Assembly: GCA_016930155.1 (NCBI GenBank)
Contig: JAFGHL010000120.1
Location: 1 to 33,961 of the forward strand
Direction: 5' to 3'
Origin: Dehalococcoidia bacterium
Lineage (GTDB): Bacteria; Chloroflexota; Dehalococcoidia; GIF9; UBA5629
Length of the DNA: 33,961 nucleotides
Below the pieces are notes generated by a model. That model searched no databases. It was not told the DNA's origin and saw only the letters and a program-made list of their open reading frames with translations. Numbering within the stretch: the stretch's first letter is position 1; each line of letters starts with the position of its first letter. This document shows, piece by piece, positions 2,260 to 31,384 of the stretch. The translations under genes and the position numbers were made by a program.

Positions 2260-2268
2260 TGGTATAAT
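2260..2268 (+). promoter_or_regulatory. Second, extended -10 promoter upstream of glyQS
   Basis: TGG-TATAAT forms an extended -10 element with no recognisable -35 box. Its predicted start near 2275 would give a leader of about 27 nt that still contains the AGGAGG ribosome binding site at 2291-2296. It may act in tandem with the promoter at 2162-2190. Confidence 0.45.
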
Positions 2269-2301
2269 TTATCAGCCTTTGGTACTCATCAGGAGGATAA
2301 T

Positions 2302-3615
2302 GTGCCGGAAGATAACATGAAAGTCACTATGGAGAAGATCGTCTCGCTGTGTAAAAGGCGGGGCTTTATTTTCCAGAGCAGCGAGATATACGGTGGGCTG
2401 GGAAGCTGTTGGGACTACGGCCCGCTGGGCGTCGAACTCAAGAAAAATATCAAGGACTTCTGGTGGAAAAAGGTGGTGCAGGAACGTGACGACATGGTGG
2501 GACTGGATGCCAGCATCATGATGCACCCGCAGGTGTGGGTGGCCAGCGGCCATGTGGCGGGCTTCTCCGACCCTCTGGTCGAGTGCAAGGACTGCAAACA
2601 CAGGTTCCGCTCCACCGATATCGATCTTTCGGCCTGTCCTGATTGCGGCGGCGCCCTGTCCGAGCCCCGTATGTTTAATCTCATGTTCAAGACCTTCATG
2701 GGACCTGTCGAGGATGCCTCCAATGTAGTATACCTGAGGCCGGAGACTGCACAGGCGCAGTTCGTTAACTTCGATAACGTGCAGTCCACAACCAGGAAAA
2801 AGCTGCCCTTCGGTATCGCCCAGGTCGGCAAATCATTCCGCAACGAAATCACTACGGGCAATTTTATCTTTCGTACGCGTGAGTTCGAGCAGATGGAGAT
2901 CGAGTATTTCGTCAAGCCCGGCACCGACGGCGAATGGTTCGGTTACTGGGTCAATGAGAGGCTTAACTACTACGTGGGCCTGGGCATAAAAAAGGATAAC
3001 CTGAGGCTCAGGCAACATGACCAAGAGGAGTTGGCGCACTATGCCAGGGGCTGCTTTGACGTTGATTATAACTTCCCTATCGGCTGGTCGGAGATCGAGG
3101 GCATTGCCAACCGGGGTGATTTCGATCTTACCCAGCACTCCAAGTTCAGCGGCAAGACGCTGGATTATTTCGATGAGGAGAAGAACGAACGCTATATACC
3201 TTACGTTATCGAGCCGTCATCCGGCGTGGACCGCACGCTGCTGGCCGTTCTATGCGATGCCTACGATGAAGAGATGGCCGACAAGGAATTGCGTGTGGTG
3301 CTGCGCATTAATCCGCAGATAGCCCCGGTCAAGGTGGCCATTTTACCGCTCAGCCGTAACGCCAAATTGCTGCCCATGTCGAAGGGAGTCTCAGCGCTGT
3401 TGAGGCAGCATTTTATGACGCAGTACGATGACGCTCAGAGCATCGGCAGGCGATATAGAAGGCAGGACGAGATAGGTACGCCCTATTGCGTGACCATCGA
3501 CTTCCAGTCCCTGGATGATAACCAGGTAACCATACGTGAGCGCGACAGCATGCAGCAGTCCAGGGTACCTGTGGCGGAATTAGTTGAAACGCTGAAAGAC
3601 AAATTTGGATTGTGA
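2302..3615 (+). CDS. glyQS: Glycine--tRNA ligase (alpha2 type)
   Basis: This class II aminoacyl-tRNA synthetase charges tRNA-Gly with glycine in the cytoplasm. The 437-aa chain is the homodimeric type found in eukaryotes, archaea and many bacteria, not the alpha2beta2 type. Visible marks are a zinc-like set C95/C98/C112/C115, the glycine-pocket segment [12 protein letters not shown] (about 146-157), motif 2 around [13 protein letters not shown] (170-182), motif 3 [11 protein letters not shown] (304-314) and a C-terminal anticodon-binding domain from about residue 335. The GTG start at 2302 is chosen because AGGAGG (2291-2296) lies 5 nt upstream; the next in-frame ATG at 2317 would be 20 nt away. 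The stop codon overlaps the start of the following histidine kinase gene, so a housekeeping synthetase heads a signalling operon. Confidence 0.95.
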
Positions 3616-5768: not shown

Positions 5769-5779
5769 GAGGTGAAAGA

Positions 5780-6427
5780 ATGGAGCGGATAAAGATACTT
5801 GTCGCAGATGACCACGAGGTGGTCAGGGATGGTATCGTGGGTAACCTGGTACGGCAACCCGACTTTGCCATCGTCGGCCAGGCATCCAACGGGATGGAGG
5901 CGGTGCAGAGGGCGGCCGAACTATCCCCTCATATTATTCTGATGGATTTGCGCATGCCTGAGCTGGACGGCGTTGAGGCCATGATCAGAATCAAGCAGGA
6001 TAATCCGGAGATCAAGTTCATAGTTTTTACCACGTATTCCGATGACGAATATCTTTTCGCAGCCATCAAGGCCGGGGCCAAGGGCTATCTGTTGAAGGAT
6101 GCCCCCCGCGAGGAGCTGTTTAAGGCCATCAGGGCTGTCTCACGAGGCGAATCGTTGATTCAGCCGGTCTTTACCACCAAGGTGCTGGACAAGCTCGCTC
6201 TGGAGCTGTCCCGCAAAAGCACGGGCGTCGATGCCCTGTCCGACAGGGAGATAGAAGTTCTTGACCTCATGGCCAAGGGCGTTTCCAACAAAGACATAGC
6301 TGACCAGCTCTCCATTACGCAAAGCACGGTCAAAACCCACGTGACCAGCATCTTCCAGAAATTGAACGTAACGACCCGCACCGAGGCTGTGACAACCGCC
6401 TTTAAGCGCGGAATAATCCAGCTCTGA
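5780..6427 (+). CDS. NarL/FixJ-family response regulator
   Basis: The 215-aa protein has an N-terminal receiver domain with the acidic pair D10/D11, phospho-acceptor D56 in ILMDLRMP and the conserved lysine in YLLKDAP. A C-terminal LuxR-type helix-turn-helix follows (about 150-212: LSDREIEVLDLMAKG, NKDIADQLSITQSTVKTH). It is the expected DNA-binding partner of the HisKA_3 kinase just upstream, separated by 11 nt containing a strong AGGAGG ribosome binding site. The target promoters cannot be read from the sequence. A perfect 18-bp palindrome begins at the last base of its stop codon and might be a binding site or part of an RNA structure. Confidence 0.94.
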   Translation: MERIKILVADDHEVVRDGIVGNLVRQPDFAIVGQASNGMEAVQRAAELSPHIILMDLRMPELDGVEAMIRIKQDNPEIKFIVFTTYSDDEYLFAAIKAGAKGYLLKDAPREELFKAIRAVSRGESLIQPVFTTKVLDKLALELSRKSTGVDALSDREIEVLDLMAKGVSNKDIADQLSITQSTVKTHVTSIFQKLNVTTRTEAVTTAFKRGIIQL

Positions 6428-6444
6428 TCATACTTAAGTATGAT
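6427..6444. repeat. 18-bp perfect palindrome at the end of the response-regulator gene
   Basis: ATCATACTTAAGTATGAT is fully self-complementary and starts on the last base of the stop codon. It has no loop, so it fits a dimeric protein-binding site better than a terminator stem. The remainder of the 170-bp gap up to 6597 holds the GC hairpin at 6449-6466 and no convincing promoter. Confidence 0.6.
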
Positions 6445-6448
6445 TTCG

Positions 6449-6469
6449 CCCGGCCTTTTGGACGGGTTT
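6449..6469 (+). terminator. Weak GC hairpin, possible end of the glyQS-kinase-regulator operon
   Basis: CCCGGCC and GGACGGG pair around a TTTT loop with one G-A mismatch, followed by only three T residues. It could pause or end transcription of the operon, but lacks a proper U-tract, so the call is tentative. Confidence 0.3.
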
Positions 6470-6597
6470 CGCCGTCACCTTTAGGCGGCCTGTAAAACCA
6501 ACCTATATCCCGATTATATAAACCCTGCTAATGCGTTAGACTTACTTTGTGTCAATATAAACAAATGTGAGTGCGTATTAATTTAGCAAGGTGAGAA

Positions 6598-6993
6598 ATG
6601 GAAGAACCGATTAGAGTACTGATTACAGACGATAACGAAGTAGTGCGAGAGGGACTCAAGAGCATCTTCGACGGGCATAAGGATATCGAGGTGGTAGGCC
6701 AGGCTGTCGATGGGCTGGATGCCCTGGAGAAAGCTGAGAAGCTGCAGCCCGATGTAATTCTTATGGACGGCCAGATGCCCCGCATGGACGGACCGACTGC
6801 CATACGGGCTATAAAGAAGATCATGCCCGATGTCAAAATACTGTTCCTGACAGTATACGGTGATTATGCGGGCGACGCGCTGGCATCCGGCGCAAGCTGG
6901 TATCTGACCAAGGACTGCCGCAGGCAGGACTTGCTCGAAGCCATCAGGGCGCTGGCGCAGAGCGCACGCTTGAAAGCCAAACAGGCCGGCTAA
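6598..6993 (+). CDS. Stand-alone receiver-domain protein (CheY-like fold, NarL-type REC)
   Basis: The 131-aa product is a single receiver domain with acidic residues D11/D12, phospho-acceptor D57 in ILMDGQMP, the conserved threonine in FLTVYGD and the lysine in YLTKDC. Its sequence resembles the receiver of the upstream NarL-type regulator, but it ends after the receiver with a basic tail (ARLKAKQAG) and has no DNA-binding domain. It may accept phosphate from the same kinase as a sink or act through a protein partner; this is inference from proximity. AAGGTGAG at 6588-6595 is a good ribosome binding site. The gene is separated from the upstream operon by 170 bp and followed by a strong terminator, so it is probably a single-gene unit. 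Confidence 0.88.
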   Translation: MEEPIRVLITDDNEVVREGLKSIFDGHKDIEVVGQAVDGLDALEKAEKLQPDVILMDGQMPRMDGPTAIRAIKKIMPDVKILFLTVYGDYAGDALASGASWYLTKDCRRQDLLEAIRALAQSARLKAKQAG

Positions 6994-7026
6994 ATCATAT
7001 ACTGAAGCATCTAACGTAACACGATA

Positions 7027-7062
7027 TGAATCCCGCTTTTTAAAAGGCGGGATTCAGTTTTT
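7027..7062 (+). terminator. Intrinsic terminator after the receiver-domain gene
   Basis: TGAATCCCGC (7027-7036) pairs perfectly with GCGGGATTCA (7047-7056), and the stem is followed by GTTTTT (7057-7062). The T-tract is on the rightward strand, so it ends transcription of the 6598-6993 gene, 34 nt past its stop. On the opposite strand there is no U-tract, so it does not serve the convergent acyl-CoA synthetase gene. Confidence 0.9.
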
Positions 7063-7071
7063 CCGGCATAC

Positions 7072-8664
7072 TCACTTCTGGCGGGATGCCCTTTCCTCGT
7101 CCACCAGGGCGCGCCGGTCCACCTTTCCGCTGGCCAGCAGCGGTAGCAAAGGTCTGACCTCGAACTGCTTCGGTACCTTATAGTTGGCCAGGTGCTTTTT
7201 ACACAGCTCGCGTATCTCTTCTGCATCGACGTTCTTGCCGGGCACCGGCATGATATATGCCTTGCCCACCTCCTGCCAGGTCTCGTCCGGTATGGGAATG
7301 ACCGTAACGAAGGCTATGCCTGGATATTGCTCAATGACCGCCTCGATCTCCCGCGGGTAAATGTTATAACCGCCCGACTTGAACATCTCTTTTGTGCGCC
7401 CCACGATCTTGATATAGCCGCGGTCATCCATGGTGGCCAGGTCGCCCGATTTGAGCCAGCCGTCCTTCGTAATGGTCTCGGCCGTGGCTTCGGGGCGTTG
7501 CCAGTATCCTTTCATTATCAGGTCGCCTTTCATCCATATCTCGCCCACTTCCCCTGTTTTGACCTCCTGACCTTTGCCGTCCATCAGCTTTATCTTGAAG
7601 GGGGGATAGCATTTGCCGGCCGTCTGAATCAGGTCTTCCATGGAGTCGCCCGGTTTGGTGTATGTTATGAAGCCGGCGTTCTCGGTCTGTCCGTATCCGG
7701 TCATCAGTGTCGCACCGGTCTTCGACAGCCTTGTGACCATCGATTCCGGGGCAGCCGAGCCGGCCCAGATGATGGTTCTCAGGCTGGACAGGTCGTAGCT
7801 GTCGAAATCGGGCAATGTGAATTGCAGCATGAACATGGCCGGCACCTGGCCCATAAAGGTGATCTTCTCGTCCTGCACCATCTTAAGAGTGGCCGCCGGA
7901 TCGAAGCGGTCCATCAATACCATAGTGGCCCCCCAGTGCAGGCAGCCCATTACGAGTTCCACCGCGCAGGCGACGTGGTTGATGGGGAAATGGATGAGGG
8001 CCTTGCCCTCGCCGCGCTTGCTGTTGGGCGCCATGAAGCGGGCATTTTGGGCGGCGGCGCTGGATACCATATTCTTATGCGTCAGCAGCGCCCCCTTGGG
8101 TTTGCCCGTGGTTCCCGAGGTATAGATGATCAGCGCCGGGTCGTCCTCTTTCACCTCACTGATGCGTTTTTTCAGGGCGGCGTCCAGGCTGCTGCGGTCT
8201 TTGCCCATCTCCTGTTCCCAGCTGAAGGTGCCTTCCCAGGGATTGTCTATAATGATCAGTCGCTCCAGATCGGGGTTGGCTTCCTTAAGGGCCGTCAGGT
8301 CGTCCTTGTAGTCGCGCATCAGGACTTCGTAGTTCCTGACCGCGAATCCGATTTTAGGTTTGGCATCCCCGACCATATAAAGAAACTCATCGCGGGTATA
8401 CCTGGGATTGAGCCCGAACCAGATTCCACCCACCATGACCGTGGCCATGTAGATATACTCAAACTCGTCGCGCGCCGCGCAAAGCGTAAATACCCGGTCA
8501 CCCTTTTTAACCCCCAGTTCGAGCAGCAGTTTCGCCACGCTGACCGTTCTCTCATAGAACGTTTTATATGTGATTCGCCTATCCTTGAAGACCAGCGCCT
8601 CCCTGTCGGGACTTTCATCCGCCCACTTTTTAACGTACTGCCAGGCCAGCTTCTGCTTATCCAT
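7072..8664 (-). CDS. Acyl-CoA synthetase (AMP-forming, ANL superfamily)
   Basis: The 530-aa enzyme activates a carboxylic acid with ATP to an acyl-adenylate and then to acyl-CoA. Seen are the P-loop YTSGTTGKPKG (181-191), the adenine-binding GYGQTEN, the hinge region around KSGDLATMDDRGYIKIVGRTKEM, and the C-terminal lysine motif SGKVDRRAL needed for adenylation. The length is usual for medium/long-chain or aryl acyl-CoA ligases, but the substrate cannot be assigned. The start is ATG at 8664, because GGGAGG lies 7 nt upstream; the longer frame beginning with TTG at 8679 would swallow that ribosome binding site. It is the last gene of the hpt-ade-crotonase-synthetase operon, 47 nt after the crotonase gene, so it may feed acyl-CoA to that enzyme. 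Confidence 0.92.
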   Translation of the reverse strand: MDKQKLAWQYVKKWADESPDREALVFKDRRITYKTFYERTVSVAKLLLELGVKKGDRVFTLCAARDEFEYIYMATVMVGGIWFGLNPRYTRDEFLYMVGDAKPKIGFAVRNYEVLMRDYKDDLTALKEANPDLERLIIIDNPWEGTFSWEQEMGKDRSSLDAALKKRISEVKEDDPALIIYTSGTTGKPKGALLTHKNMVSSAAAQNARFMAPNSKRGEGKALIHFPINHVACAVELVMGCLHWGATMVLMDRFDPAATLKMVQDEKITFMGQVPAMFMLQFTLPDFDSYDLSSLRTIIWAGSAAPESMVTRLSKTGATLMTGYGQTENAGFITYTKPGDSMEDLIQTAGKCYPPFKIKLMDGKGQEVKTGEVGEIWMKGDLIMKGYWQRPEATAETITKDGWLKSGDLATMDDRGYIKIVGRTKEMFKSGGYNIYPREIEAVIEQYPGIAFVTVIPIPDETWQEVGKAYIMPVPGKNVDAEEIRELCKKHLANYKVPKQFEVRPLLPLLASGKVDRRALVDEERASRQK

Positions 8665-19917: not shown

Positions 19918-20796
19918 TTAGTCAGCCAGTCGGTATAAATTTTTATAGGCGGATGAAAAATCCGGGTCTTCGCGCTCGAACTGCTCGCGAAGGTAACGCA
20001 TTCTCTGCGCGAAATTTTCTCCATCATGTTCGCGTACCAGTTTAAGCCAGAGATCAGTTTTCTCACGGAAAAGCTCTTCTGTGCTGGCCATGTCCGGCAA
20101 GCTCATCTGAAGTGAGGAATAAAAATCGGGATCCTCGGAAAGGACGGCCTTTGCCAGCGTGAGCAGCAGGCGGAAACTGGTGCCGCTGATCTCCCCCGCC
20201 TCCTTCAGGCTGCCCAGGCTCAGTAACGTATCGGCCGATACGAGAGCGATGAAATGGGGCAGTCCCAGCACCATGCCCATCAGTTGGTCGTGCCGTGCCG
20301 GGCTCATAACGGTGACTCTGGCCCCCCTGCTTTCGATCAGCCTGCGCAGCTGCGCTGTCAGCGATTCCTCCGCATCTCCCACAGGTGTAAATACGAATCG
20401 CTGCCCCTGCAACGATGCAGCGCCCGGGCCGAACATAGGATGCGTGCCCAGTATGCGGCAACCGCTTAAATATGTATGCATTATCTCAACCGGGCGTTGT
20501 TTGACGGAAGTGATATCGAATACATATTGTCCCGGCCTTGTATGCAGCGCCATCCGGCGGACTACGGCCTCGAAGTTGCCGATGGGAACGGAGATTATTA
20601 TAGCCTCGGCCTGTTTGACAGCTTCCTCAAGGGGCGCAGACCGGCAGCCCAGTTCCCGGGCCGCGTCCTCGAGCTTCTGCAAATTGCGGCCGGCCAGCGT
20701 CACCTCTATGTTCTCTTGCTTCAGGAAGCGCGCCAGCCACCTGCCCATTTTACCGTATCCTCCTACGACGGAGATCCTGGTTATGTTACCTGTCAT
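19918..20796 (-). CDS. tyrA: Prephenate dehydrogenase
   Basis: The 292-aa enzyme oxidatively decarboxylates prephenate to 4-hydroxyphenylpyruvate for tyrosine. It has the Rossmann motif VVGGYGKMG (10-18), the catalytic-site H119 in LGTHPMFGPG, and the second conserved histidine segment RHDQLMGMVLGLPHF. There is no ACT domain at the C-terminus, so allosteric control, if any, is not of the ACT type. The start overlaps the pheA stop as ATGA. It is the last gene of the aromatic operon, in keeping with its being a terminal branch reaction. Residue usage for NAD versus NADP was not resolved. Confidence 0.93.
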   Translation of the reverse strand: MTGNITRISVVGGYGKMGRWLARFLKQENIEVTLAGRNLQKLEDAARELGCRSAPLEEAVKQAEAIIISVPIGNFEAVVRRMALHTRPGQYVFDITSVKQRPVEIMHTYLSGCRILGTHPMFGPGAASLQGQRFVFTPVGDAEESLTAQLRRLIESRGARVTVMSPARHDQLMGMVLGLPHFIALVSADTLLSLGSLKEAGEISGTSFRLLLTLAKAVLSEDPDFYSSLQMSLPDMASTEELFREKTDLWLKLVREHDGENFAQRMRYLREQFEREDPDFSSAYKNLYRLAD

Positions 20797-21866
20797 GTCT
20801 GTCTGGCCTTGGGATAGGACCCCAGCACCTTGAGGAAGAGGGAGATATCCTCCAATTGTAACAGCGTCTGCTGCACTTCGCTATCGCTGCGGTGCCCCTC
20901 GAAATCCAGGTAGAAATTGTATTCCCAGGGCTTCTGCCGGGTGGGACGCGACTCTATTTTGGTCAGGTTGATACGCCTTTTGGCGAATTCGCCCAGCGCC
21001 TGGTACAGCGTGCCGGGTTTGTGCTTGAGCAGAAACACGATGGAGGTCTTGTCATGGCCTGAAGGCGGGGCATCGATGCGTCCGAGAACGAAGAACCTTG
21101 TGGTATTGCGTGGGTTATCCTCGATCTCGCGGTCCAGTATTTTCATCTCGTAAATCTGCGCGGAACGGGCGCCTGCGATGGCTGCGCCGTCCATGATCTT
21201 TTTCTCCTTGATCATCTTAACGCTGCCCGCCGTATCGTAGGCGGGGATTATCTCGCAGCTCAGATGCCTCAGATAGGACTGGCACTGCGCCAGCGCCTGA
21301 GGATGAGAATAGATACGCTTGATGGATGACATCGAAGCGCCGCGGTTGGCGATAAGGCAGTGCGAGACCCTGATCTGCGTCTCTCCGCAGACCATCACGT
21401 CCGCGTCCAGCAGCAGGTCGTAGGAGCGGCTGATACTGCCTTCCTGCGAGTTCTCCACGGGCACTATGCCGTAAGGCACGACTCCTTCCTGGACAAGTTT
21501 AAACACTTCGTCCAGCGTTTCGCAGGGGCGGGTCAGTACGGAATTGCCGAAGAAGTCGAAGGCCGCCTCCTGGCTGTAGGCACCGTCCTGTCCCTGAAAG
21601 GCTATTTCCATACCCTGTACGCCTCTCGATGCTGCGATAATCTGCTGGTAGAGCTGCTCCACGTCTTGCGGATTGACGCCCTCTTTTTTGGCCAGAAGCC
21701 TGACATGGTCGACGACCTCTTTTTCACGCGCTGCGTCCTGAATGCGACCTCGCCCTTTTCTCTTTAGGTCCCCTATTTTGCGGGCTGCCCTCAATCGCCG
21801 GGACAGCAGCTTAACTATATTTGAATCGATGCTGTCGATATCTTTTCTTAAATCGTCCAGACTCAT
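20793..21866 (-). CDS. pheA: Bifunctional chorismate mutase / prephenate dehydratase (P-protein)
   Basis: The 357-aa protein joins an AroQ chorismate mutase (about 1-85; LRKDIDSIDSNIVKLLSRR, KIGDLKR) to a prephenate dehydratase (about 88-270; AFQGQDGAYSQEAA, VPVENSQEGSI, catalytic NTTRFFVLG) and a C-terminal ACT domain. The ACT domain has the phenylalanine-binding ESRP segment; the usual GALV is replaced by GTLY. It makes phenylpyruvate from chorismate and is probably feedback-inhibited by Phe. The start ATG at 21866 overlaps the aroC stop as ATGA and follows GGGAG. The upstream in-frame start at 21911 lies within aroC and adds residues without family similarity. Confidence 0.94.
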   Translation of the reverse strand: MSLDDLRKDIDSIDSNIVKLLSRRLRAARKIGDLKRKGRGRIQDAAREKEVVDHVRLLAKKEGVNPQDVEQLYQQIIAASRGVQGMEIAFQGQDGAYSQEAAFDFFGNSVLTRPCETLDEVFKLVQEGVVPYGIVPVENSQEGSISRSYDLLLDADVMVCGETQIRVSHCLIANRGASMSSIKRIYSHPQALAQCQSYLRHLSCEIIPAYDTAGSVKMIKEKKIMDGAAIAGARSAQIYEMKILDREIEDNPRNTTRFFVLGRIDAPPSGHDKTSIVFLLKHKPGTLYQALGEFAKRRINLTKIESRPTRQKPWEYNFYLDFEGHRSDSEVQQTLLQLEDISLFLKVLGSYPKARQT

Positions 21867-22954
21867 GAGATTATTCTCCCTATATAGCCGGCCCGCAGAG
21901 CGAAGTCGCACAATACCAGCGACATCATGGCTTCAACCACGGGAACGGCCCTCGGCACGATGCAGCTGTCATGCCTGCCTTTGACCGCTAAATCGACCTT
22001 TTTGCCGGTTTTCAGGTTAACCGTCTGCTGACTTTTACCAATGGAAGCCGTCGGCTTGAAGGCCACCCTCGCGATAATCGGCATGCCGTTGCTCAGTCCT
22101 CCCGATATGCCGCCTGCGTGGTTGGTAAGTGTGACTATTTTCTTGTTTTTTACGCTGAAAAGGTCGTTGTGCTGCGATCCTCTCATGGCTGCCGCGCCGA
22201 AGCCGGCGCCGAATTCGACTCCCCTGGCGGCAGGGATGGCGAAGAAGGCTTTAGACAGCTCGCCCTCCAAGGTGTCGAATACGGGCTCCCCCAGCCCGCC
22301 GGGCACGTTGAGCGCCAGCGCTTCCACCGTGCCGCCGATGCTGTCGGCATCCTTCTGAACGGCCTGTATGGCGGCCATCATTTTTTTTGCCGCCGCAGGG
22401 TCCGCGCATCTGACAGGTGTCTTATCTATGTATCGTCTGGTGATATGTGATGGGTGCGGGTCGGACTTAACGTCTCCGATCTGCACGGTGTGGGCGATAA
22501 TCGCGATACCGCGCTGCGCCAGCAGCTTCCCGGCTATGGCGCCCGCCATGACGAATCCGGCGGTAATGCGGCCGGAAAACCTGCCGCCGCCGCGGAAATC
22601 GTTGTATTTGCCGTATTTAAGAAAGGCCGTGTAGTCGGCATGGCCCGGCCTGGGCCGGGAGATAATCTCACTATAGGCGCTGGAGTCGGCGTCTTTATTC
22701 CAGGCCAGCAGGCAGATGGGCGCCCCTGTCGACCTGCCGTTAAATATGCCCGAAAGGGCTTCCACCCTGTCCTCTTCCCTGCGCCCCGTGCCGCCGGCGC
22801 TGCTCTGCGGTTTTCGGCGGTCCACCTCGGCCTGTATCTCATCCAGCCCGATGGGCAGGCCGGCCGGGCAGCCGTCTATCACCACGCCCACGCACCTGCC
22901 GTGGCTTTCGCCGAAACTGGTTACTACGAACTGTGTGCCGATACTATTGCTCAT
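21863..22954 (-). CDS. aroC: Chorismate synthase
   Basis: The 363-aa flavoenzyme makes chorismate from 5-enolpyruvylshikimate 3-phosphate by 1,4-elimination and needs reduced FMN. Signature segments are SFGESHG near the N-terminus, RPGHADYT, the KYNDFRGGGRFSGR block, and the late GGISNG-like AGGISGGLSNG and AVPVVEAM. Length and order are normal. The start overlaps the aroA end by 11 nt and the end overlaps pheA by 4 nt. No flavin reductase domain is present, so it is the monofunctional kind. Confidence 0.96.
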   Translation of the reverse strand: MSNSIGTQFVVTSFGESHGRCVGVVIDGCPAGLPIGLDEIQAEVDRRKPQSSAGGTGRREEDRVEALSGIFNGRSTGAPICLLAWNKDADSSAYSEIISRPRPGHADYTAFLKYGKYNDFRGGGRFSGRITAGFVMAGAIAGKLLAQRGIAIIAHTVQIGDVKSDPHPSHITRRYIDKTPVRCADPAAAKKMMAAIQAVQKDADSIGGTVEALALNVPGGLGEPVFDTLEGELSKAFFAIPAARGVEFGAGFGAAAMRGSQHNDLFSVKNKKIVTLTNHAGGISGGLSNGMPIIARVAFKPTASIGKSQQTVNLKTGKKVDLAVKGRHDSCIVPRAVPVVEAMMSLVLCDFALRAGYIGRIIS

Positions 22955-24206
22955 CGAAAACCACCTCCCCTCCCAGGCCCTTCAAGCCGGCCCAGAAGTC
23001 AGGATAAGTTTTAGTTACGCACTCTGCGTCCTCTATGACCGTGTTGCCCGCCAGCACGCCCGGTATGCTGAAGGCCATGGCTATCCTGTGGTCGCCTTTC
23101 GCATCGATGGCGCAGCCTGCAGGCCTTCCCCCGGTTATATACATGGAATCCCTTTCCTCCCTGACTGGTATGCCCATGCGCTGCAATCCCTCCTTTACGG
23201 CAGCCACCCTGTCGGACTCCTTCAGCCGGGCGCGGCTGATGCCGCTCAGGATGCTCTCTCCCTGCGCTGCGGCAGCCAGCACAGCCATGGTCGGAAGCAG
23301 ATCGATACAGTCCGACAGGTCAGCCTTCACGGCTTTCAGTCGCGCCTTCCTGGCCCTAACGCCGTCGCCTCGTACCTGCAAATCGGCGCCCATGCGCTTG
23401 AGCAGGGTCAGTATCTCCCTGTCGGCCTGCAAGCTCGACCTGTTCAGATTAAACACGTGTACATCGCCCGCCACGGCGCCCAGCGCCAGCAGGTATGAGG
23501 CCGACGACCAGTCCCCTTCCACGCGGTAGCGAGCGGGCCTGTAGGCCTGCGGCTTGATCTCGAACACCATATCGTCCGAACTGCGCCCCACCCTGATCCC
23601 GAACTTCTTCATACAGTCGATCGTCATATCAATATAGGGTTTCGATTCAACCGGCGGGGCCAGCTCTATGCTCATCCCCTCCTCAGCCCTGGGCGCGATG
23701 AAAAGCAGGGCTGAGACAAGCTGAGAGCTGATATCCCCCGGCAACCCGGCCGTGCCGCCCTTTAACAGGTCTCCACGGATGGTAACCGCCGCGCTGCCGT
23801 CGGTGGTGCAGTCCACGCCCAGCAGCCTGAGCGCCTCCACCAGCGGAGCGATGGGCCTTCGCGATAAGGACAGGCCCGCCGTCAGCCGGCAGATGCCCGG
23901 CACGAGCGAGCAGATGGCCGTCATAAAACGCAGCGTGCCGGCCGAATCGCGGCAGAACAGCTCCGAATCCGGCTGGCGGAAGCTGCCCCCGCTAACCAGC
24001 CATGAGCCATCCTTTTCGCTGATCGCCACGCCGATTTTACCGAGCGCTTCACGCCCGGCTTCAGTGTCGTCGGCATAAAGCGGACTTTCGATCTCGCTCA
24101 ATCCGTCCGCCAGCGCGGCGCACATCAGAGCGCGCAGGGTATAGCTCTTGGAAGATGGAGCCTGTATACTGCCGCTAATCATGCTTTGGGAGATCGTGAC
24201 TCTCAT
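22944..24206 (-). CDS. aroA: 3-phosphoshikimate 1-carboxyvinyltransferase (EPSP synthase)
   Basis: The 420-aa enzyme condenses shikimate 3-phosphate with PEP. It shows APSSKSYTLRAL (16-27; shikimate-phosphate lysine and arginine), SSQLVSALL, EGDWSSASY, RLKESDRVAA (PEP-binding arginine region) and KGDHRIAMAF. The loop that is GNAGTAMRP in E. coli reads RDSAGTLRF here (86-94), with Ala at the position of the glyphosate-sensitive glycine if aligned on the arginine. The N-terminus RVTISQSMISGSIQAPSSKS fits the family start, so the ATG at 24206 is kept although it overlaps the aroK end by 32 nt. Confidence 0.95.
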   Translation of the reverse strand: MRVTISQSMISGSIQAPSSKSYTLRALMCAALADGLSEIESPLYADDTEAGREALGKIGVAISEKDGSWLVSGGSFRQPDSELFCRDSAGTLRFMTAICSLVPGICRLTAGLSLSRRPIAPLVEALRLLGVDCTTDGSAAVTIRGDLLKGGTAGLPGDISSQLVSALLFIAPRAEEGMSIELAPPVESKPYIDMTIDCMKKFGIRVGRSSDDMVFEIKPQAYRPARYRVEGDWSSASYLLALGAVAGDVHVFNLNRSSLQADREILTLLKRMGADLQVRGDGVRARKARLKAVKADLSDCIDLLPTMAVLAAAAQGESILSGISRARLKESDRVAAVKEGLQRMGIPVREERDSMYITGGRPAGCAIDAKGDHRIAMAFSIPGVLAGNTVIEDAECVTKTYPDFWAGLKGLGGEVVFDEQ

Positions 24207-24717
24207 TAATTTTCAGCTCCGCAAGTATTTTTTTTACCACGCCCTCGATATCGAGCGTCGAAGTGTCTATCGTCAGGTCGGCTGCCGCCTCGTATAAAGG
24301 TATCCTGTGTTTAAGCAGGCTGTCCATGGCCGAGGCGGGATCGAATACCTGAAGCAGGGGACGCCTCTCAGGGCTGTTCAATACACGTCGCAGCAGGATG
24401 GAGGGCTTGGCCGATAGATATACGATAGTTGCATTGCGCTTGAGCGCCCCGATGTTGGACTGATCAAGGACCACACCGCCCCCGCAGGCGATCACCGTAT
24501 TTTCTCTGCCGATGACCTCATTGACGGTCTCAGACTCGATACGCCGGAAGGCGTCCTCCCCGTCGTATGAAAAAATCCGGGATATCGACATCCCGGCTTT
24601 TTGCTGTATCCGAGTATCCAAATCGATGAAATCCATTCCGGAGGCCGCCGACAGCGTCCTGCCGACGGTGGATTTGCCGGCTCCCATAAATCCGATTAAA
24701 GCGATATTACTTTGCAT
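24175..24717 (-). CDS. aroK: Shikimate kinase
   Basis: The 180-aa P-loop kinase phosphorylates shikimate at O3. Walker A GFMGAGKST (9-17), the shikimate-binding DLDTRI (acidic pair near 32-34) and FRRIE (arginine near 58), ACGGGVVL and the lid region with RRPLL are all seen. Length is usual. It overlaps aroE by 11 nt upstream and aroA by 32 nt downstream, the longest overlap in the operon. Confidence 0.95.
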   Translation of the reverse strand: MQSNIALIGFMGAGKSTVGRTLSAASGMDFIDLDTRIQQKAGMSISRIFSYDGEDAFRRIESETVNEVIGRENTVIACGGGVVLDQSNIGALKRNATIVYLSAKPSILLRRVLNSPERRPLLQVFDPASAMDSLLKHRIPLYEAAADLTIDTSTLDIEGVVKKILAELKINESHDLPKHD

Positions 24718-25579
24718 AGCGTTTCATTGCCTGGACGGCCGCCCGGCGCATCACATCGACCGGCGCTCTGCAGCCGGTCCATATCTCGAATGACAGCGCC
24801 CCCTGCCATGCCAGCATATTCAACCCTCCAATAATCCTGGCCCCGGCTTTCTCCGCATCCCTGAGCAGCCTGGTTACGACCGGATTATATACGATATCGA
24901 CCACGATGTGCCTGCGCTCCAGCAGTTTGCCGTTGACCGGGCTCTCGCCGGCATGCGGGGCCATTCCCAGGCTGGTGGCGTTCACCAGCAGGTCGGCCCT
25001 GGCCAGCGATTTGGTAAGGTTGTCCGGATTCAGTTCCAGCGCCGCGAATGTGCGGCCGGTATATTTCGCCATGTCCTCCGCGCAGTCCCGTGCTTTCTGT
25101 AGGGTCCTGTTGAGGATGGTGATATCGCTGCCGAGTGAAGCCAGCGCGAAGCAGACGGCCCTGGAGGCGCCCCCCGCGCCGAGAACAACTGCATGCAGGC
25201 TGTGAGTCTCTATGCCCTGCTCCTTCAGCAGGCGCAGGAAACCCTCCGCATCGGTATTGCCGCCGGTCAACCTCCCGTCTTTATTATGAACAACGTTTAC
25301 TGCGCCGATGCGCTGCGCCAGCGGATCGACCTCATCCAGCAGGGGTATAATCGACACCTTGTGCGGGATGGTGATGTTCATGCCCGCCATATGCAGCGCC
25401 CTGATGCCTTCGACGGCGCTCGCCAGCCTGTCTCTGCTGACCCTGAAGGGTAAATAAACATAGTTGAGCCCCAGTTTGCGAAAGGCGGCATTGTGCATGG
25501 CGGGTGAGACGCTGTGTTCCACCGGATCCCCCATCACACCGCATACCAGTTTTCGGCCGTTCAATTCAAAGCCTGTCAT
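24707..25579 (-). CDS. aroE: Shikimate 5-dehydrogenase
   Basis: The 290-aa enzyme reduces 3-dehydroshikimate to shikimate with NADPH. It has HSVSPAMHNAAF (shikimate binding), NITIPHKV with the catalytic lysine, GGNTDAEGF with the catalytic aspartate, the nucleotide motif VLGAGGASRA, LNRT, and a C-terminal GGLNMLAWQGALSFE. The ATG at 25579 overlaps the aroD stop as TGATG; a GTG one codon earlier is also possible. The LNRT segment after the nucleotide fold fits AroE rather than the YdiB type. Confidence 0.95.
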   Translation of the reverse strand: MTGFELNGRKLVCGVMGDPVEHSVSPAMHNAAFRKLGLNYVYLPFRVSRDRLASAVEGIRALHMAGMNITIPHKVSIIPLLDEVDPLAQRIGAVNVVHNKDGRLTGGNTDAEGFLRLLKEQGIETHSLHAVVLGAGGASRAVCFALASLGSDITILNRTLQKARDCAEDMAKYTGRTFAALELNPDNLTKSLARADLLVNATSLGMAPHAGESPVNGKLLERRHIVVDIVYNPVVTRLLRDAEKAGARIIGGLNMLAWQGALSFEIWTGCRAPVDVMRRAAVQAMKRYAK

Positions 25580-26232
25580 CACGCCATCGTCCCGTAAATC
25601 CTGCGCAGGAACTCCACGCTCAGCTGCCCGGGGGCGGAGCCTCCGGTCTTATCCATTGAGGCATAGGTCAGGTAGCCGCCCGCCAGGGGCGAAAGGACGC
25701 GGCTGAGCGTCCCCGCAGTGCCCATGGCAAAAGAGATTATATCGATCCCCGGGAAGCGGCCCGGCAGTTCGAGCACGACCAGGTTGTCGTCGATATCTCC
25801 AGCCATTGTAACCACCTTGCAGATATCCGCTCCCGCGGCGAGCTGCTGTTTTACGATGATGGATAACTGCTCCGGCGGGGGTGTTTCATACCAGTTGTGA
25901 TAGGAGATCAGGCAACCGGCGCTGCTTTTTATACGTTTAGCCGTATCTTTCAGCGAAGGGCAGTCCAGCTCGATATCCACCATACCGGCGCCCAGCTCAA
26001 TCGCCCGCAGCAGTTTGATGATGCGTTCCTCCTCGCTGCCGGCGAATTTTCCGCGGTGCGAGATGTCCCGCATGGTGGCTATCCAGGGCTTATGTATTTG
26101 CGATACAATCTCCTGCCAGCCATCGCCCACCAGGTCCATGCGCAGCTCAAACAGATCCGACAGAGGTTCCACCCTTTTGAGGGCTGCCAGGTCGCCGCTC
26201 GTGATCACAGTGCAGATTCTGGGGCTATGCAT
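25579..26232 (-). CDS. aroD: 3-dehydroquinate dehydratase, type I
   Basis: The 217-aa TIM-barrel enzyme converts 3-dehydroquinate to 3-dehydroshikimate through a Schiff base. The catalytic lysine is K139 in GADICKVVTMA and the partner histidine is H112 in LISYHNW. ELRMDL near residue 29-34 and SFAMGTAGTLSR are further family marks. The chain is at the short end of the type I range (about 220-250 aa). The start ATG at 26232 overlaps the aroB end by 8 nt; the 20 residues of upstream open frame are inside aroB and unlike the family. Confidence 0.94.
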   Translation of the reverse strand: MHSPRICTVITSGDLAALKRVEPLSDLFELRMDLVGDGWQEIVSQIHKPWIATMRDISHRGKFAGSEEERIIKLLRAIELGAGMVDIELDCPSLKDTAKRIKSSAGCLISYHNWYETPPPEQLSIIVKQQLAAGADICKVVTMAGDIDDNLVVLELPGRFPGIDIISFAMGTAGTLSRVLSPLAGGYLTYASMDKTGGSAPGQLSVEFLRRIYGTMA

Positions 26233-27307
26233 TATCGTTCTCCAGCACGTCGACGGCCAGTGCGAAGCTGACGTCGCTCGATATGAAGACACGGCCTATC
26301 CTTTGCGGCAGGATGAACCTGGTTTTGCCGTCGACCACTTTCTTATCATGGTCCATGGCATGCAGCACCCTGGACATGTCCACCTGGGGCATGCGCGCCG
26401 GCAACCCCGCCCTCAGCAGCAGGTCTTTCAGACTGGCGAGGTCTTTGGATGGGAATATGCCCAGACGGTTTGAGATTGTTGAGGCTTTGACCATGCCTAT
26501 GGCCACAGCCTGGCCGTGCCCTATCTTGAAATCCATTGCTGCCTCTATGGCGTGGCCTATGGTATGGCCGAAGTTCAGTATATTGCGCAGCCCGGTGTCG
26601 CGCTCATCTTTTTCCACGATGCGGGCTTTGATGTGCACGCAGCGCTGGACCACCTCCTCCAGCAGGTCGTTCTCAAGCGCGCGGATAGCGTCCATCTTTC
26701 TCTCGAGCAGGTTGAAAAAGGGCCGGTCGCGGATCATCCCGTATTTGATCACCTCGGCCAGGCCGTTGCTGATCTCCTTGGGCGGAAGGCTGCCCAGCGT
26801 ATATGTGTCCGCGATGACCATCTCCGGATGATGAAAGACGCCGATATTGTTTTTCACCGGGCCGTGGTCCACCGCCGTTTTACCCCCCAGGCTGCTGTCC
26901 ACCTGCGCCAGCAGCGTGGTGGGTAGGGCCACCAGGGGCAGGCCCCCCATGTAGGTGGCTGCCACGAATCCCGCCAGGTCGCCTATCACTCCTCCTCCCA
27001 GCGCCAGCACGGGAGTAGACCGTTCCGCCCGGGCGTTTTGCATACCGCCGTAGAGCCTGGCAGCGGTATCGAGGGATTTATGCTGTTCCCCCTCGGCAAC
27101 CAGCAGCGTCACGGTTTTAAAGCCCTCTTTCTCCAGGGCCTGCCTGACCATGCTGCCGTACAGCCGGTCGATATCCGGATTGCTGATAATAACAGCCTTT
27201 TCGCCCTTAAACCTTTCCCTGGCCCACCTGCCCGCATGGTACAGCAGGCCGCCGCCGATGCGCACATCGTAAGCTTCCTTGCCGGGCCTGATCCTTATTG
27301 TCCTCAA
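26225..27307 (-). CDS. aroB: 3-dehydroquinate synthase
   Basis: The 360-aa NAD- and metal-dependent enzyme cyclises DAHP to 3-dehydroquinate. Visible are the nucleotide-binding GGGVIGDLAGFVAATYMGG, ALPTTLLAQVDSSLGGKTAV, KYGMIRD and the metal-binding NFGHTIGHAIEAA. The start is taken as TTG at 27307, as no ATG or GTG is near the family start. AGGTGG lies about 9-10 nt upstream, in the 16-nt gap after aroF. A TTG start would lower its translation relative to its neighbours. Confidence 0.92.
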   Translation of the reverse strand: MRTIRIRPGKEAYDVRIGGGLLYHAGRWARERFKGEKAVIISNPDIDRLYGSMVRQALEKEGFKTVTLLVAEGEQHKSLDTAARLYGGMQNARAERSTPVLALGGGVIGDLAGFVAATYMGGLPLVALPTTLLAQVDSSLGGKTAVDHGPVKNNIGVFHHPEMVIADTYTLGSLPPKEISNGLAEVIKYGMIRDRPFFNLLERKMDAIRALENDLLEEVVQRCVHIKARIVEKDERDTGLRNILNFGHTIGHAIEAAMDFKIGHGQAVAIGMVKASTISNRLGIFPSKDLASLKDLLLRAGLPARMPQVDMSRVLHAMDHDKKVVDGKTRFILPQRIGRVFISSDVSFALAVDVLENDNA

Positions 27308-27323
27308 CCTTCGATACCACCTG

Positions 27324-28391
27324 TCAGTTTACGGATTTCGAGGATACCATGCCGTGTATCTCACGGCAGGCCTTTATTATATCCTGTAATTCGCCGGGCG
27401 TAATTGTCTGCCGGCCGTCGACGATGGCCTCCTGCGGATTATAGTGCACCTCGATCATCAATCCGTCGGCGCCTGCGGCTACAGCTGCGCAGCTCATACT
27501 GAAGATCAGGTCGCGCCGGCCTGTGCTGTGGCTGGGATCGATAATCACCGGCAGGTATGTCTCCTTTTTGATAACCGGCACTGCCGCCAGGTCCAGAGTG
27601 TAGCGCGTGTACTCCTTGCCCTTGCCCACCGGCACGATGCCGCGCTCGCAAAGGATGATGTCCTTGTTGCCCTCGGCGGCGATGTAATCCGCGAATGAGA
27701 GGAACTCCTCTATGCCGGCGCCGAAATGCCTTTTGAGCAATATGGGCCTGTTCTTCTTGCCGACCTTGGCCAGCAAATCCTGGTTGTACATATTGCGCGA
27801 ACCGATCTGAAGTATATCGACATATTCAGCCGCCAGGTCTACATGGTCCTCGCCCCTGACCTCGGTGACCACGGGCAATCCGTACTCTTTGCCGGCGTCG
27901 CGCATCCATTTGAGCGCCTGTTCGGCGCTTTTCATGTCGCCACCGCCCAGTCCCTGGAAGGAGTGGACCGAGCTCCTGGGTTTGAATATACCTCCTCTCA
28001 GAATGTGCGCGCCGGCCTTTTTGATGCTCTCTGCGATCATGTAGAGCTGTTTTTTGTTCTCCACCGCACAGGGCCCGGCCATGATGATGGGTTCACCGTT
28101 GCCGATATGTATGTTACCTATATCGATGGTGCGGCGCAGCCCGCCGCTGCCGTCGGCTGCGCGCCCGTACTCCCTGCTGATCAGCTTGTATGGGGTTTCG
28201 ATTTTGACCACCTCCTTGACGCCCGGCAGTATGGCGAAGTTATCGAAGGGCACCTTCCTCTCATCTCCCACCAGTCCTATGACTGTCCTGAAATCCCCCC
28301 GTGAGACATCCGCCTTGAGGCCGTGCACCTTGATCTCTTTGATCACGTTCTTGATCTCCTCTTCCGTAGCGTCGCGTTTCATTATCATCAT
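27324..28391 (-). CDS. aroF: 3-deoxy-7-phosphoheptulonate (DAHP) synthase, type I-beta
   Basis: The 355-aa enzyme condenses PEP and erythrose 4-phosphate, the first and committed step of the aromatic pathway. An N-terminal ferredoxin-like regulatory domain (about 1-90), like that of the Thermotoga enzyme, precedes the barrel. Barrel motifs include [47 protein letters not shown] and [11 protein letters not shown]. The N-terminal domain in relatives binds Tyr or Phe, so protein-level feedback is probable. AGGGAGG lies 10 nt before the ATG. It is the first gene of the nine-gene operon and lies directly behind an attenuator (28421-28574), so its transcription is predicted to depend on charged aromatic tRNAs. 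Confidence 0.95.
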
Positions 28392-28420: not shown

Positions 28421-28456
28421 AAAAAAAGAAGGGCCCTCCGCCTGGAGGGCCCTTCT
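28421..28456 (-). terminator. Attenuator terminator hairpin ahead of aroF
   Basis: On the minus strand AGAAGGGCCCTCC (28456-28444) pairs perfectly with its 13-nt complement (28439-28427) around the loop AGGC, and is followed at once by seven T residues (28427-28421). The aroF start lies 30 nt further on, so unless this stem is prevented from forming the whole aromatic operon is not transcribed. Confidence 0.93.
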
Positions 28457-28523
28457 CGATCTTCTTACTTACAGCTACTTAAAATTCAGGTATGTTGCAT
28501 CGTCCCCCAGGCAGTCTGCCGGG
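28438..28523 (-). promoter_or_regulatory. Attenuator arms 1-2-3 (pause and antiterminator pairings)
   Basis: Three segments can pair in exclusive ways. Arm 1 (about 28523-28517, CCCGGCA) pairs with arm 2 (about 28513-28507) in a small hairpin. Arm 2 extended, CTGCCTGGGGG (28514-28504), can instead pair with CCCTCCAGGCGG (28449-28438) over 11 positions with two G-U pairs; this uses up the loop and left arm of the terminator. A ribosome waiting on codons 15-16 of the leader peptide would cover arm 1 and leave arm 2 free, favouring readthrough. Pairings were worked out by eye. Confidence 0.75.
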
Positions 28524-28574
28524 CGTAAAATAATAATAGGCGTAAAACCAGCGGGACAGTATGCAATTAACCAT
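28479..28574 (-). CDS. Aromatic-codon leader peptide of the aro operon attenuator
   Basis: A 31-codon frame opens with ATG at 28574 and ends with TAA at 28479. Codons 8-16 read R-W-F-Y-A-Y-Y-Y-F: seven aromatic codons in a run of eight, covering Trp (TGG), Phe (TTT twice) and Tyr (TAC, then TAT three times). The stop codon lies 22 nt before the terminator stem. This is the arrangement of trpL/pheL-type leader peptides, in which ribosome stalling at codons for a scarce amino acid switches off termination. The frame is preceded by a TTGACA/extended -10 promoter whose predicted start falls on or next to the ATG, so it is probably leaderless; no Shine-Dalgarno is present. Function is inferred; codon content and position are directly seen. 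Confidence 0.88.
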   Translation of the reverse strand: MVNCILSRWFYAYYYFTPGRLPGGRCNIPEF

Positions 28575-28581
28575 GGAGTAA

Positions 28582-28610
28582 ACACTAACATAGAATTACA
28601 GGTATGTCAA
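28582..28610 (-). promoter_or_regulatory. Promoter of the aromatic operon
   Basis: On the minus strand a perfect TTGACA (28610-28605) lies 17 bp from TAGTGT (28587-28582), which is preceded by the TG of an extended -10 (TGT-TAGTGT). Seven bases separate the -10 box from the leader-peptide ATG. Confidence 0.7.
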
Positions 28611-28681: not shown

Positions 28682-31384
28682 ATGAATTCTGATAAGAAAG
28701 ATGTCTGGTATAACCTGACGGCTGATGAAACACTGGTCAGATTAGATTCCCGAAAAGAAGGCCTGAGCCATGAAGAGGCCACCGCCAGGCTTGAGAAATA
28801 CGGGTACAACGAGCTGGAGGGTGACGACAGCGTGTCGGCCTGGCGTCTTTTACTGGAGCAATTTAAGAACGTCCTGATCATCATACTGCTGATAGCAGTC
28901 GCACTCTCCGCCTTCCTGGGTGAGACCACCGACGCCATCGTAATTTTCATTATCATAGTCTTTGCCGCCGGGCTGGGCTTTTTCCAGGAGTACCGGGCGG
29001 GACGCGCCATACAGGCGCTCAAGCGTATGGCGGCGCCGCTGGCCTCGGTGCTGAGGGGTGGGGTGGAGACCGATGTGCCCGCCAGGGAGCTGGCGCCGGG
29101 CGATGTTATCCTGCTGACCATGGGCGACATGGTGCCCGCCGACGCCCGCATTATCGAGGAGGTCAACCTGAGGACCAACGAGGCGCCGCTAACCGGGGAG
29201 TCCAATGCTGTGGAGAAAAACTGCGGCTGCATGGCCTGTGATGTCAACCTGGGCGACAGGACCAACATGGTATTTTGCGGGACTGTGGCTGTCTACGGCA
29301 GGGGCAAAGCCGTGGTGGTGGAAACGGGCAGCGGGACTGAGTTTGGAAAAATCGCCCGCATGCTGAAGGAGGTCAAGGAGGAGAGGACACCGCTGCAGGT
29401 CAACCTGGACAGCATCGGCAAATATATCGCCATTGGCGCGCTGATACTGTGCGCCGTGCTGGCCGGCATGGGCATCTGGCGCGGGCATCCGCCGCTGGAG
29501 ATGCTTATCTGGGGCGTGAGCCTGGCTGTGGCGGCTGTTCCCGAGGCGCTGCCTGCTGTTGTGACCATATCTCTGGCGCTGGGCGTCAGGCGCATGGTCA
29601 AGCGCCACGCGCTGGTGCGCCGTCTATCGGCTGTCGAGACGCTGGGATGTACTACCGTGATCTGTTCCGATAAGACCGGCACGCTGACCGAGGACCAGAT
29701 GACGATGAAAAAGGTCTTTCTGGACGGGCGGTTTATCGACATCACCGGCACGGGCTATGAGCCTGTGGGAGAATTTTACAGCGACGGCAGGGCACTGGAC
29801 CCGGCCGATGCCGTACTGCAAAAGTATTTGAAGGCGGCCAACCTCTGCGCCAACGCCAAGCTCTACCGGGAGGACGACCGCTGGAAGATCAAGGGTGATC
29901 CCACGGAGGGCGCCTTCCTGGTGGCGGCAGCCAAGGCGGGCCTGATGGATTACCAGGCCGGAAACGATAATCCGCTGGTCGGCGAGATACCCTTCACGTC
30001 GGAGACCAAAAGGATGGTGGTCGCCTACAGGGAGCCGGATGGAGTCGTGGCCTATTCCAACGGCGCGGCCGAGGTTATTTTGAATGCCTGCGACTATATT
30101 TACCGGGACGGGCGCGAGGTCAGGCTGGATGGGGATGAGCGGGCCAGAGTCCAAAACACCATCCATCAAATGGCAGGGGAAGCTCTCAGGGTGCTGGGCA
30201 CCGCGTATAAGCTGCTGCCGGACGAGTTCAGTTTGGACGAATCCGCCATCCGCGGAATGGTTCTACTGGGGTTGGGTGGTATGATAGATCCGCCTCGTGC
30301 GGAGGCGAAGGGGTCCATCGGGGTATGCGACCAGGCCGGGATCAGGACCATTATGATAACAGGCGACCATAAGCTGACGGCGGTTACCATCGCCGGCGAG
30401 CTGGGCATAATGAAGGGAGGGATGGCGCTGACGGGTGACGAGATAAATCAAATGCCTGCGGATGAGTTCAATCGTACGGCGGAAAAAGTGGATGTATATG
30501 CCAGGGTTTCGCCGGAGCATAAGCTGCGCGTGGTGGAGGCGCTGGCCCGCAAAGGTCACGTAGTAGCCATGACAGGCGACGGCGTCAACGATGCGCCCGC
30601 GCTCAAGAAAGCGGATATAGGCATAGCCATGGGAATTAAAGGCACTGACGTTACCCGTGAAGCCGCCGATATGATCCTGACCGACGATAACTTCGCCTCA
30701 ATCGTGGCGGCGGTGGAGGAGGGGCGGGCCATCTATGACAATATCAAGAAATATCTGGTCTTCCTGCTTTCCTGCAACCTCGGTGAGATACTGCTGATGG
30801 CCACCGCCATACTGCTGGGTCCTTTGCTGGGTATACCGGGAGGAGCGCTGCCGCTGATCGCGGTGCAGATACTCTACGTTAACCTGGCGACGGATGGGTT
30901 GCCGGCGCTGGCCCTGGCTGTTGACCCTTACTCCAAAGATGTCATGTTCAGGAAGCCGCGGCCCAGAAACCAGACCGTCTTTACCCGTAATACGGTCAGC
31001 TATATGGTTATCATGGGGGTTTGGACCTGTATCGCCGCCATCTCCGTTTTCGTATGGGCCCTGAACCGGGGAGAGAGTCTGCTGGAGGCGCAGAGCCTGT
31101 GCTTTGTTACCCTCATCATCATCCAGTTCCTCAACGCTTTTAATTGCCGTTCACTGGAGCGGTCGCTTTTCAACCTCGGCGTCAATCAGAACAGATGGCT
31201 GCTGGCCGCTGTTGGATGGGAGCTTGCGCTGCTCTTACTTGTAGTCTATGTTCCCTTTCTGCAGGGTGCTTTCAACACCTTTGCCCTGACTATCGAGGAC
31301 TGGATTGTGGCAGTGTCCGGCGCGTTGACTATAGTCGTGGTAGCCGAGATCTACAAGTTGATTTCCGTCCGGTTCAACAGGTGA
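28682..31384 (+). CDS. Calcium-type cation-transporting P-type ATPase (P2A-like)
   Basis: The 900-aa membrane pump has the N-terminal cation-ATPase domain (WYNLTADETLVRLDS), actuator motif LTGES, and a TM4 cation-site segment AAVPEALPAVVT. Phosphorylated D330 is in CSDKTGTLT, the nucleotide domain has KGDPTEGA, and MTGDGVNDAPALK and the TM6 NLATDGLPALAL follow before four C-terminal helices. TM4 E plus TM6 N..TD is the Ca2+-site pattern of SERCA and of bacterial LMCA1-like pumps, so Ca2+ export is likely and Mn2+ is possible. AAGGAAG lies before the ATG. It is transcribed divergently from the aro operon, sharing a palindrome-bearing promoter region. It has no partner gene downstream. Confidence 0.92.
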   Translation: MNSDKKDVWYNLTADETLVRLDSRKEGLSHEEATARLEKYGYNELEGDDSVSAWRLLLEQFKNVLIIILLIAVALSAFLGETTDAIVIFIIIVFAAGLGFFQEYRAGRAIQALKRMAAPLASVLRGGVETDVPARELAPGDVILLTMGDMVPADARIIEEVNLRTNEAPLTGESNAVEKNCGCMACDVNLGDRTNMVFCGTVAVYGRGKAVVVETGSGTEFGKIARMLKEVKEERTPLQVNLDSIGKYIAIGALILCAVLAGMGIWRGHPPLEMLIWGVSLAVAAVPEALPAVVTISLALGVRRMVKRHALVRRLSAVETLGCTTVICSDKTGTLTEDQMTMKKVFLDGRFIDITGTGYEPVGEFYSDGRALDPADAVLQKYLKAANLCANAKLYREDDRWKIKGDPTEGAFLVAAAKAGLMDYQAGNDNPLVGEIPFTSETKRMVVAYREPDGVVAYSNGAAEVILNACDYIYRDGREVRLDGDERARVQNTIHQMAGEALRVLGTAYKLLPDEFSLDESAIRGMVLLGLGGMIDPPRAEAKGSIGVCDQAGIRTIMITGDHKLTAVTIAGELGIMKGGMALTGDEINQMPADEFNRTAEKVDVYARVSPEHKLRVVEALARKGHVVAMTGDGVNDAPALKKADIGIAMGIKGTDVTREAADMILTDDNFASIVAAVEEGRAIYDNIKKYLVFLLSCNLGEILLMATAILLGPLLGIPGGALPLIAVQILYVNLATDGLPALALAVDPYSKDVMFRKPRPRNQTVFTRNTVSYMVIMGVWTCIAAISVFVWALNRGESLLEAQSLCFVTLIIIQFLNAFNCRSLERSLFNLGVNQNRWLLAAVGWELALLLLVVYVPFLQGAFNTFALTIEDWIVAVSGALTIVVVAEIYKLISVRFNR

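Follow-up and report, generated by a model that had tools for sequence, protein, structure and literature searches.

What controls the nine-gene aromatic operon found in a genome of the class Dehalococcoidia, and which amino acids does the short peptide encoded ahead of it report on? The stretch of DNA analyzed here (33,961 nt, referred to below as the window) belongs to a 2.6-Mb MAG in 131 contigs, 98% complete and 8% contaminated. Its minus strand carries the genes aroF-aroB-aroD-aroE-aroK-aroA-aroC-chorismate mutase/prephenate dehydratase-tyrA, joined by overlaps or short gaps and ending at position 19918, with no trp genes among them. All nine were recognized by profile matches (Table 1), which bears out the complete aromatic operon of the original prediction. 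The closest relatives of the window aroF protein come from MAGs of Dehalococcoidia (phylum Chloroflexota), from 94% identity downwards. The 31-codon leader ORF with the codon run W F Y A Y Y Y F lies where it had been placed, with its ATG at 28574 and its TAA at 28481-28479; likewise present is the terminator before aroF, whose U tract consists of seven T residues (28427-28421). The aroF gene, with the ribosome site GGGAGG, begins 29 nt past the terminator. A P-type cation-transporting ATPase gene (28682-31384, plus strand) is divergent from the aro leader, and a 107-nt intergenic region is common to both.

Table 1. Window positions of the leader elements and of the operon genes, with the basis of each assignment
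Feature	Position	Strand	Basis
-35 element TTGACA of the leader promoter	28605..28610	minus	sequence; TTGACA in ~70/76 relatives
-10 element TAGTGT	28582..28587	minus	consensus match only; 17-nt spacer; ends 7 nt before leader ATG
Leader peptide ORF MVNCILSRWFYAYYYFTPGRLPGGRCNIPEF, stop included	28479..28574	minus	sequence; similar ORF in 67/68 homologous regions
Arm A, codons 3-9, upstream of/at start of aromatic run	28548..28566	minus	own vs swapped partners, z = -8.2 (68 loci)
Predicted sensor codons 9-16, W F Y A Y Y Y F	28527..28550	minus	sequence; stall simulation
Arm B, pairs with left part of arm C	28517..28523	minus	69.6% paired vs 62.4% shuffled; weaker than C:D
Arm C, antiterminator 5' half	28504..28514	minus	covariation
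Arm D, antiterminator 3' half	28438..28448	minus	covariation
Intrinsic terminator, 14-bp stem (13 on strict count), loop AGGC	28421..28457	minus	sequence/fold
aroF, type I DAHP synthase (AroF type A)	27324..28391	minus	TIGR01361, 327.9 bits; PRK08673, 443.6 bits
aroB	26225..27307	minus	TIGR01357
aroD, type I dehydroquinase	25579..26292	minus	PF01487
aroE	24707..25582	minus	TIGR00507
aroK, shikimate kinase	24175..24717	minus	PF01202
aroA	22944..24206	minus	TIGR01356
aroC	21863..22954	minus	TIGR00033
pheA-like chorismate mutase/prephenate dehydratase with ACT domain	20793..21911	minus	PF01817, PF00800, PF01842
tyrA, prephenate dehydrogenase	19918..20796	minus	NF006409, over cut-off

The ORF, the RNA arms and their covariation, the terminator, the operon and the conservation of the arrangement, as read from sequence and its comparison, indicate that this element is very probably a ribosome-mediated transcription attenuator of the nine-gene operon; stalling, antitermination in the cell and the tRNAs that count most are what we infer from them. 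An ORF rich in codons for the products of the operon and an intrinsic terminator before the first structural gene are both in place, the former in the window and in 67 of 68 homologous loci, and the leader is proposed to read charged tRNA through its own translation. Transcription would begin at the leader AUG or beside it, and the short ORF would be translated by a ribosome. When charged Tyr-tRNA or Phe-tRNA is short, the ribosome would stall in the aromatic codons and, where a W codon is present, a shortage of Trp-tRNA could perhaps stall it as well. The stalled ribosome would cover arm A or B and leave arm C free to pair with arm D once D is made, a pairing expected to block the terminator hairpin and to let the nine aromatic genes be transcribed. 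With the aromatic tRNAs charged, the ribosome would run over arm C or be released; C would then be masked or folded back on A and B, D would pair with its terminator partner, and transcription should stop before aroF.

The comparison of upstream regions proposed in the original prediction drew on 80 aroF relatives, 4 of which came without an upstream region, one (L083) was left out and 7 were archaeal, so that 68 intact Dehalococcoidia regions ahead of type A aroF were compared. A similar leader is found in 67 of them, ∼160 to 330 nt before aroF and with a terminator between leader and gene; these leaders have 4 to 8 aromatic residues per stretch of 8, and the likely start codon of one of them (L109) is TTG. 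The aromatic codons proved to be conserved and the arms to covary. A region that keeps the terminator while losing the aromatic codons or the frame was sought as counterevidence, and there is none among the 68; in L096, the single exception, no leader was seen. The aro leader is also present in three Dehalococcoides-like and eight Dehalogenimonas-like genomes (one family of the class, mostly single contigs), where it reads MLNVKSFKNYYYFTKTSLLGR in Dehalococcoides and, for example, MVAQSFYAYYYFTWCLQGTSGRYGVIA in Dehalogenimonas, these putative genus assignments being drawn from group codes and gene content, among others. The paralogous type B aroF genes, which are 45 to 50% identical to type A and often adjoin trp genes, served as a negative control: none of 14 has an ATG-started aromatic leader within 500 nt. 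None of the 7 archaeal relatives has an ATG aromatic leader either. Judging from these regions, the attenuator is kept across almost the whole class Dehalococcoidia. The probability that an aromatic-rich ORF merely happens to precede an ordinary terminator is negligible, as nothing was found in favor of such a coincidence and conservation, covariation and the negative controls refute it.

The archaeal aroF proteins, from Bathyarchaeota and other archaea (L101-L108), are 55 to 63% identical to the Dehalococcoidia type; such similarity in genes that lack the leader points to gene transfer or, in single cases, to mis-binning. One lineage carries two type A aroF copies (L061/L071, L077/L082, and the genomes of L050, L069 and L080), and where both copies were inspected, each has its own leader with a differing Tyr/Phe/Trp mix.

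The antiterminator is formed by CUGCCUGGGGG (28514-28504) and CCUCCAGGCGG (28448-28438), with 11 contiguous pairs and a predicted energy of -23.1 kcal/mol; because arm D spans part of the terminator 5' arm, the loop and the start of the 3' arm, the two structures are mutually exclusive. Covariation has kept this alternative, as expected of an attenuator. In 50 distinct rows of the alignment, C and D pair in 88.1% of cells (80.1 ± 0.8 with shuffled partners), with 51 double-change cells (16 ± 4.7) and a covariation score of 0.363 (0.220 ± 0.014), none of which was reached in 500 shuffles; these counts ignore relatedness and are strong, yet not exact, probabilities. Slid C:D registers, which keep the relatedness, pair in only 37 to 63% and point the same way, and a separate count on 68 rows agrees with the 50-row result. 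Binding between own as opposed to swapped partners across the 68 loci gives z = -10.8 for C:D, next to the value for A:C in Table 1. Of the competing pairings that had been proposed, C:D and the weaker B:C are therefore real, whereas the covarying arm A, whose partners are 28522-28518 and 28506-28495 (arm C and beyond), had been missed. The leader is predicted to fold as a long A:C hairpin with B:C inside it and with the aromatic codons mostly in the bulge between A and B; its MFE fold has z = -5.1, and none of 200 shuffles was as stable. RNAalifold returned only 4 pairs on the leader alignment, because C:D competes with the terminator and the terminator has more than one register; pairs were therefore counted for the named structures.

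Could the terminator instead be governed by a T-box, a riboswitch or a protein, the short ORF being incidental? In Dehalococcoides, trpE and trpB-like genes have been reported to have T-boxes upstream (PMC2494555). An Rfam scan of the leader gave no T-box or known riboswitch over threshold, and 67 of 68 loci keep both the ORF and an aromatic block placed alike with respect to the arms, so that control of this kind is highly improbable. The best, weak Rfam match was Phe_leader (RF01859, 22.8 bits versus a cut-off of 55), a family whose members the Dehalococcoidia leader would resemble in operation without belonging to them.

The promoter of the original prediction held up: the window -10 element is weak taken alone, and a generic promoter scan did not list it, but TTGACA, a 17- to 18-nt spacer and TAnnnT precede ∼70 of 76 leaders (consensus match only). 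What the prediction had not noted is how close to the AUG transcription would start. In 25 of the 76 leaders, the window among them, the -10 element ends 9 nt or less before the ATG, and the RNA should therefore begin at or adjoining the leader start codon; in the window, the leader start is predicted to be leaderless, at 28575/28574. Spacing like that of the window is seen in L032-L034, L098 and the Dehalogenimonas-like genomes. In the remaining leaders, the -10 element is further upstream, and few have a clear ribosome site. Since leaderless leader genes are known in Streptomyces (PMC8079986) and a leaderless trpL in Sinorhizobium meliloti (PMC7298713), such a start is not new in itself.

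The effect of a stalled ribosome was simulated by masking, for each codon, 15 nt on either side of the P site and folding the RNA up to the end of D, that is, before the terminator 3' arm is complete, in an equilibrium rather than a kinetic calculation. For the window, stalls with codons 9 to 15 in the A site give C:D probabilities of 0.97 to 0.82, a stall at F16 gives 0.11, and codons 17 to 30 give ∼0. The earlier proposal that a stall at codons 15-16 frees the antiterminator is thus supported for codon 15 and those before it, but hardly for codon 16. In 64 leaders, 398 of 424 aromatic codons (94%) are productive stall sites, as against 136 of 802 codons after the aromatic block, and the productive zone ends, in the median, 1 codon past the last aromatic one. 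Codons before the block are on average productive too; what matches the end of the block is therefore the 3' boundary of this zone. By computation, then, the control codons are positioned such that a stall would expose the antiterminator. Two model results do not simply fit. A ribosome at the last codon or stop of the window leader still gives a C:D probability of 0.91, and without a ribosome the value is 0.01; a ribosome terminating at the stop codon, which had been thought to permit the terminator, would in the window model do so after release, and shut-off would need such release or a moving ribosome. In addition, 42 of the 64 leaders favor C:D at equilibrium with no ribosome, which argues against superattenuation as a general property.

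The aromatic blocks of the 68 leaders total 274 Tyr, 140 Phe, 31 Trp and ∼80 other residues, which fits the expectation that the response would be strongest to Tyr. Tyr outnumbers Phe 2:1, and both are present in nearly all leaders; predicted sensing of Tyr and Phe is well supported. A response in practice to Phe (or Tyr) alone, with the other aromatic codons as tolerated neighbors, appears unlikely. It would agree with the Corynebacterium glutamicum aroR-aroF attenuator, whose Phe-Tyr-Phe leader is reported to respond to Phe and not to Tyr (Neshat et al. 2014, as summarized in PMC11802643 and PMC4046766), and a single change turns a Phe codon into a Tyr codon, so that their mixing could be drift. 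Against it stand the abundance of Tyr and the presence of both residues in nearly all leaders; moreover, some leaders are almost pure Tyr and a few (L077) nearly pure Phe and Trp, so no residue is universal.

The original prediction of joint Trp, Phe and Tyr sensing stands for Tyr and Phe, whereas the case for Trp is weaker, and Trp sensing in the organism of the window is doubtful. A Trp codon occurs in 31 of the 68 leaders, at varying positions, and is absent from 37, including three of the window's genus. At the class level, Trp is the commonest block residue after Tyr and Phe, even though two changes separate TGG from every Tyr or Phe codon, which makes selection for Trp codons likely. Also in favor of Trp reading, the aroF tree implies at least 15 gains or losses of W in the block, and the leaders of operons that do make Trp contain WW or WWW. 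The association with trpE is weak: the gene is found in 22 of 29 genomes with W and 17 of 34 without it (Fisher p = 0.04, or 0.07 counting partial matches), and the link is not significant with tree-based independent pairs. A tie between W and the absence of a second, trp-operon DAHP synthase was rejected (8/24 with W versus 8/20 without; p = 0.76). The chances are about even that the Trp codon is neutral in the window, left over in a lineage where Trp synthesis is lost or lacking, and that the element reads only Tyr and Phe. No trpE, trpB or trpA scored over the cut-off in the window's genome (G000), complete to 98%; within the same genus, three genomes without trpE have Tyr at the W position, while G006, with trpE and trpB, keeps W. 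Set against this, a trp operon may be missing from an assembly in 131 contigs, W persists, and W codons occupy productive stall positions in 37 of 38 cases.

The mechanism proposed for the Dehalococcoidia leader is classical, as in trpL and pheL. The leaders of the ilvGMEDA, ilvB and thr operons also show that one leader can read several amino acids of its operon, but these are branched-chain amino acids or Thr/Ile, not aromatic ones. The E. coli pheL-pheA and pheST leaders share with the present one a leader rich in Phe, alternative hairpins and an intrinsic terminator, but read only Phe and control a single gene or a synthetase operon. The trpL attenuators of E. coli and S. meliloti have the same competing-arm layout, and the latter also a leaderless start (PMC7298713), but they read only Trp. 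The closest relative in kind appears to be C. glutamicum aroR-aroF, in which an aromatic leader peptide (F-Y-F) precedes a DAHP synthase gene and regulation is ascribed to ribosome stalling; that actinobacterial leader has three aromatic codons only, whereas the Dehalococcoidia leader, in Chloroflexota, has 4 to 8 in 8, Trp often among them, and precedes a complete chorismate-Phe-Tyr operon. According to a 2010 survey, leader-peptide systems had been demonstrated in Proteobacteria and Actinobacteria alone, to which the survey added an example from Firmicutes (PMC2965389). No description of a leader-peptide attenuator in Chloroflexota was found in the open-licence literature; within this scope, the system is provisionally, and apparently, undescribed in the phylum. 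The class includes cultured organohalide respirers used for chlorinated-solvent clean-up, so the attenuator is testable in isolates. Its many natural versions could show what weight one attenuator gives to each of several amino acids and how the codons of a leader change when pathway genes are lost or gained.

A separate Trp leader (..NNWWWRNMLL..), followed by a terminator, precedes trpE in genomes of the window's family, and MANTSQTYFAYYFWWYTF.. or a near copy precedes aroF (type B)-trpE in two genomes. Further sites in the phylum were found with a covariance model of the arms, whose low-scoring matches are partly chance. Phe/Tyr leaders with the same arm motif (e.g., MFQGRFGYTFSFTQRTRVRLGRSNTN), found in Dehalogenimonas-like and other genomes, are followed by genes for an AMP-binding CoA ligase, a branched-chain-type (Liv-type) ABC transporter and a phenylacetate-CoA-ligase-like (PaaK-like) protein, a possible operon for aromatic amino acid uptake or use under the same control. 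In three genomes of another genus, which belongs to Chloroflexota outside the class of the window, MLNMSGLLVVVLVISALLVLSDL.. precedes ilvB-ilvN-ilvC. It is tempting to suppose, with slightly less than even confidence, that Chloroflexota possess an undescribed phylum-wide attenuator set with one C:D arm design and differing sensor codons (Tyr/Phe(/Trp) for aro, WWW for trp, Leu/Val/Ile for ilvB and Phe/Tyr for the transporter-CoA-ligase genes), in which the aro version would integrate several aromatic tRNAs and its codon mix would shift with the pathway genes of the lineage.

Several covariance-model matches were set aside: L195, L204 and L208-L211 appear to be chance terminators that lack a suitable leader, and L212 has no aromatic leader. 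The Trp-specific leader MVKAYSNITPVRNTNNWWWRNMLLHVREDIA and its kin, with a terminator before trpE, were seen in L118 and L123 (leader at ∼1168-1263), in L128 and in L120/L170, so that trpE in the window's family appears to be under a ribosome-type attenuator, in contrast to the T-box reported for Dehalococcoides. Upstream of type B aroF, leaders that combine Y and F with two W codons (..TYFAYYFWWYTF.., ..YDFYFWYWF) occur in L166 and L167 (on the minus strand, from 1491 and 1399, respectively) and in L191, with trpE following in two cases. The Leu/Val/Ile-rich leader (MLNMSGLLVVVLVISALLVLSDLE..), with matching arms and terminator, is found with ilvB-ilvN-ilvC in L198, L201 and L203 (∼1400-1595) and in L224. 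The CoA-ligase/transporter genes are those of L196, L197, L199, L205, L213 and L215-L218, and the operon in L221 extends from 508 to 7890.
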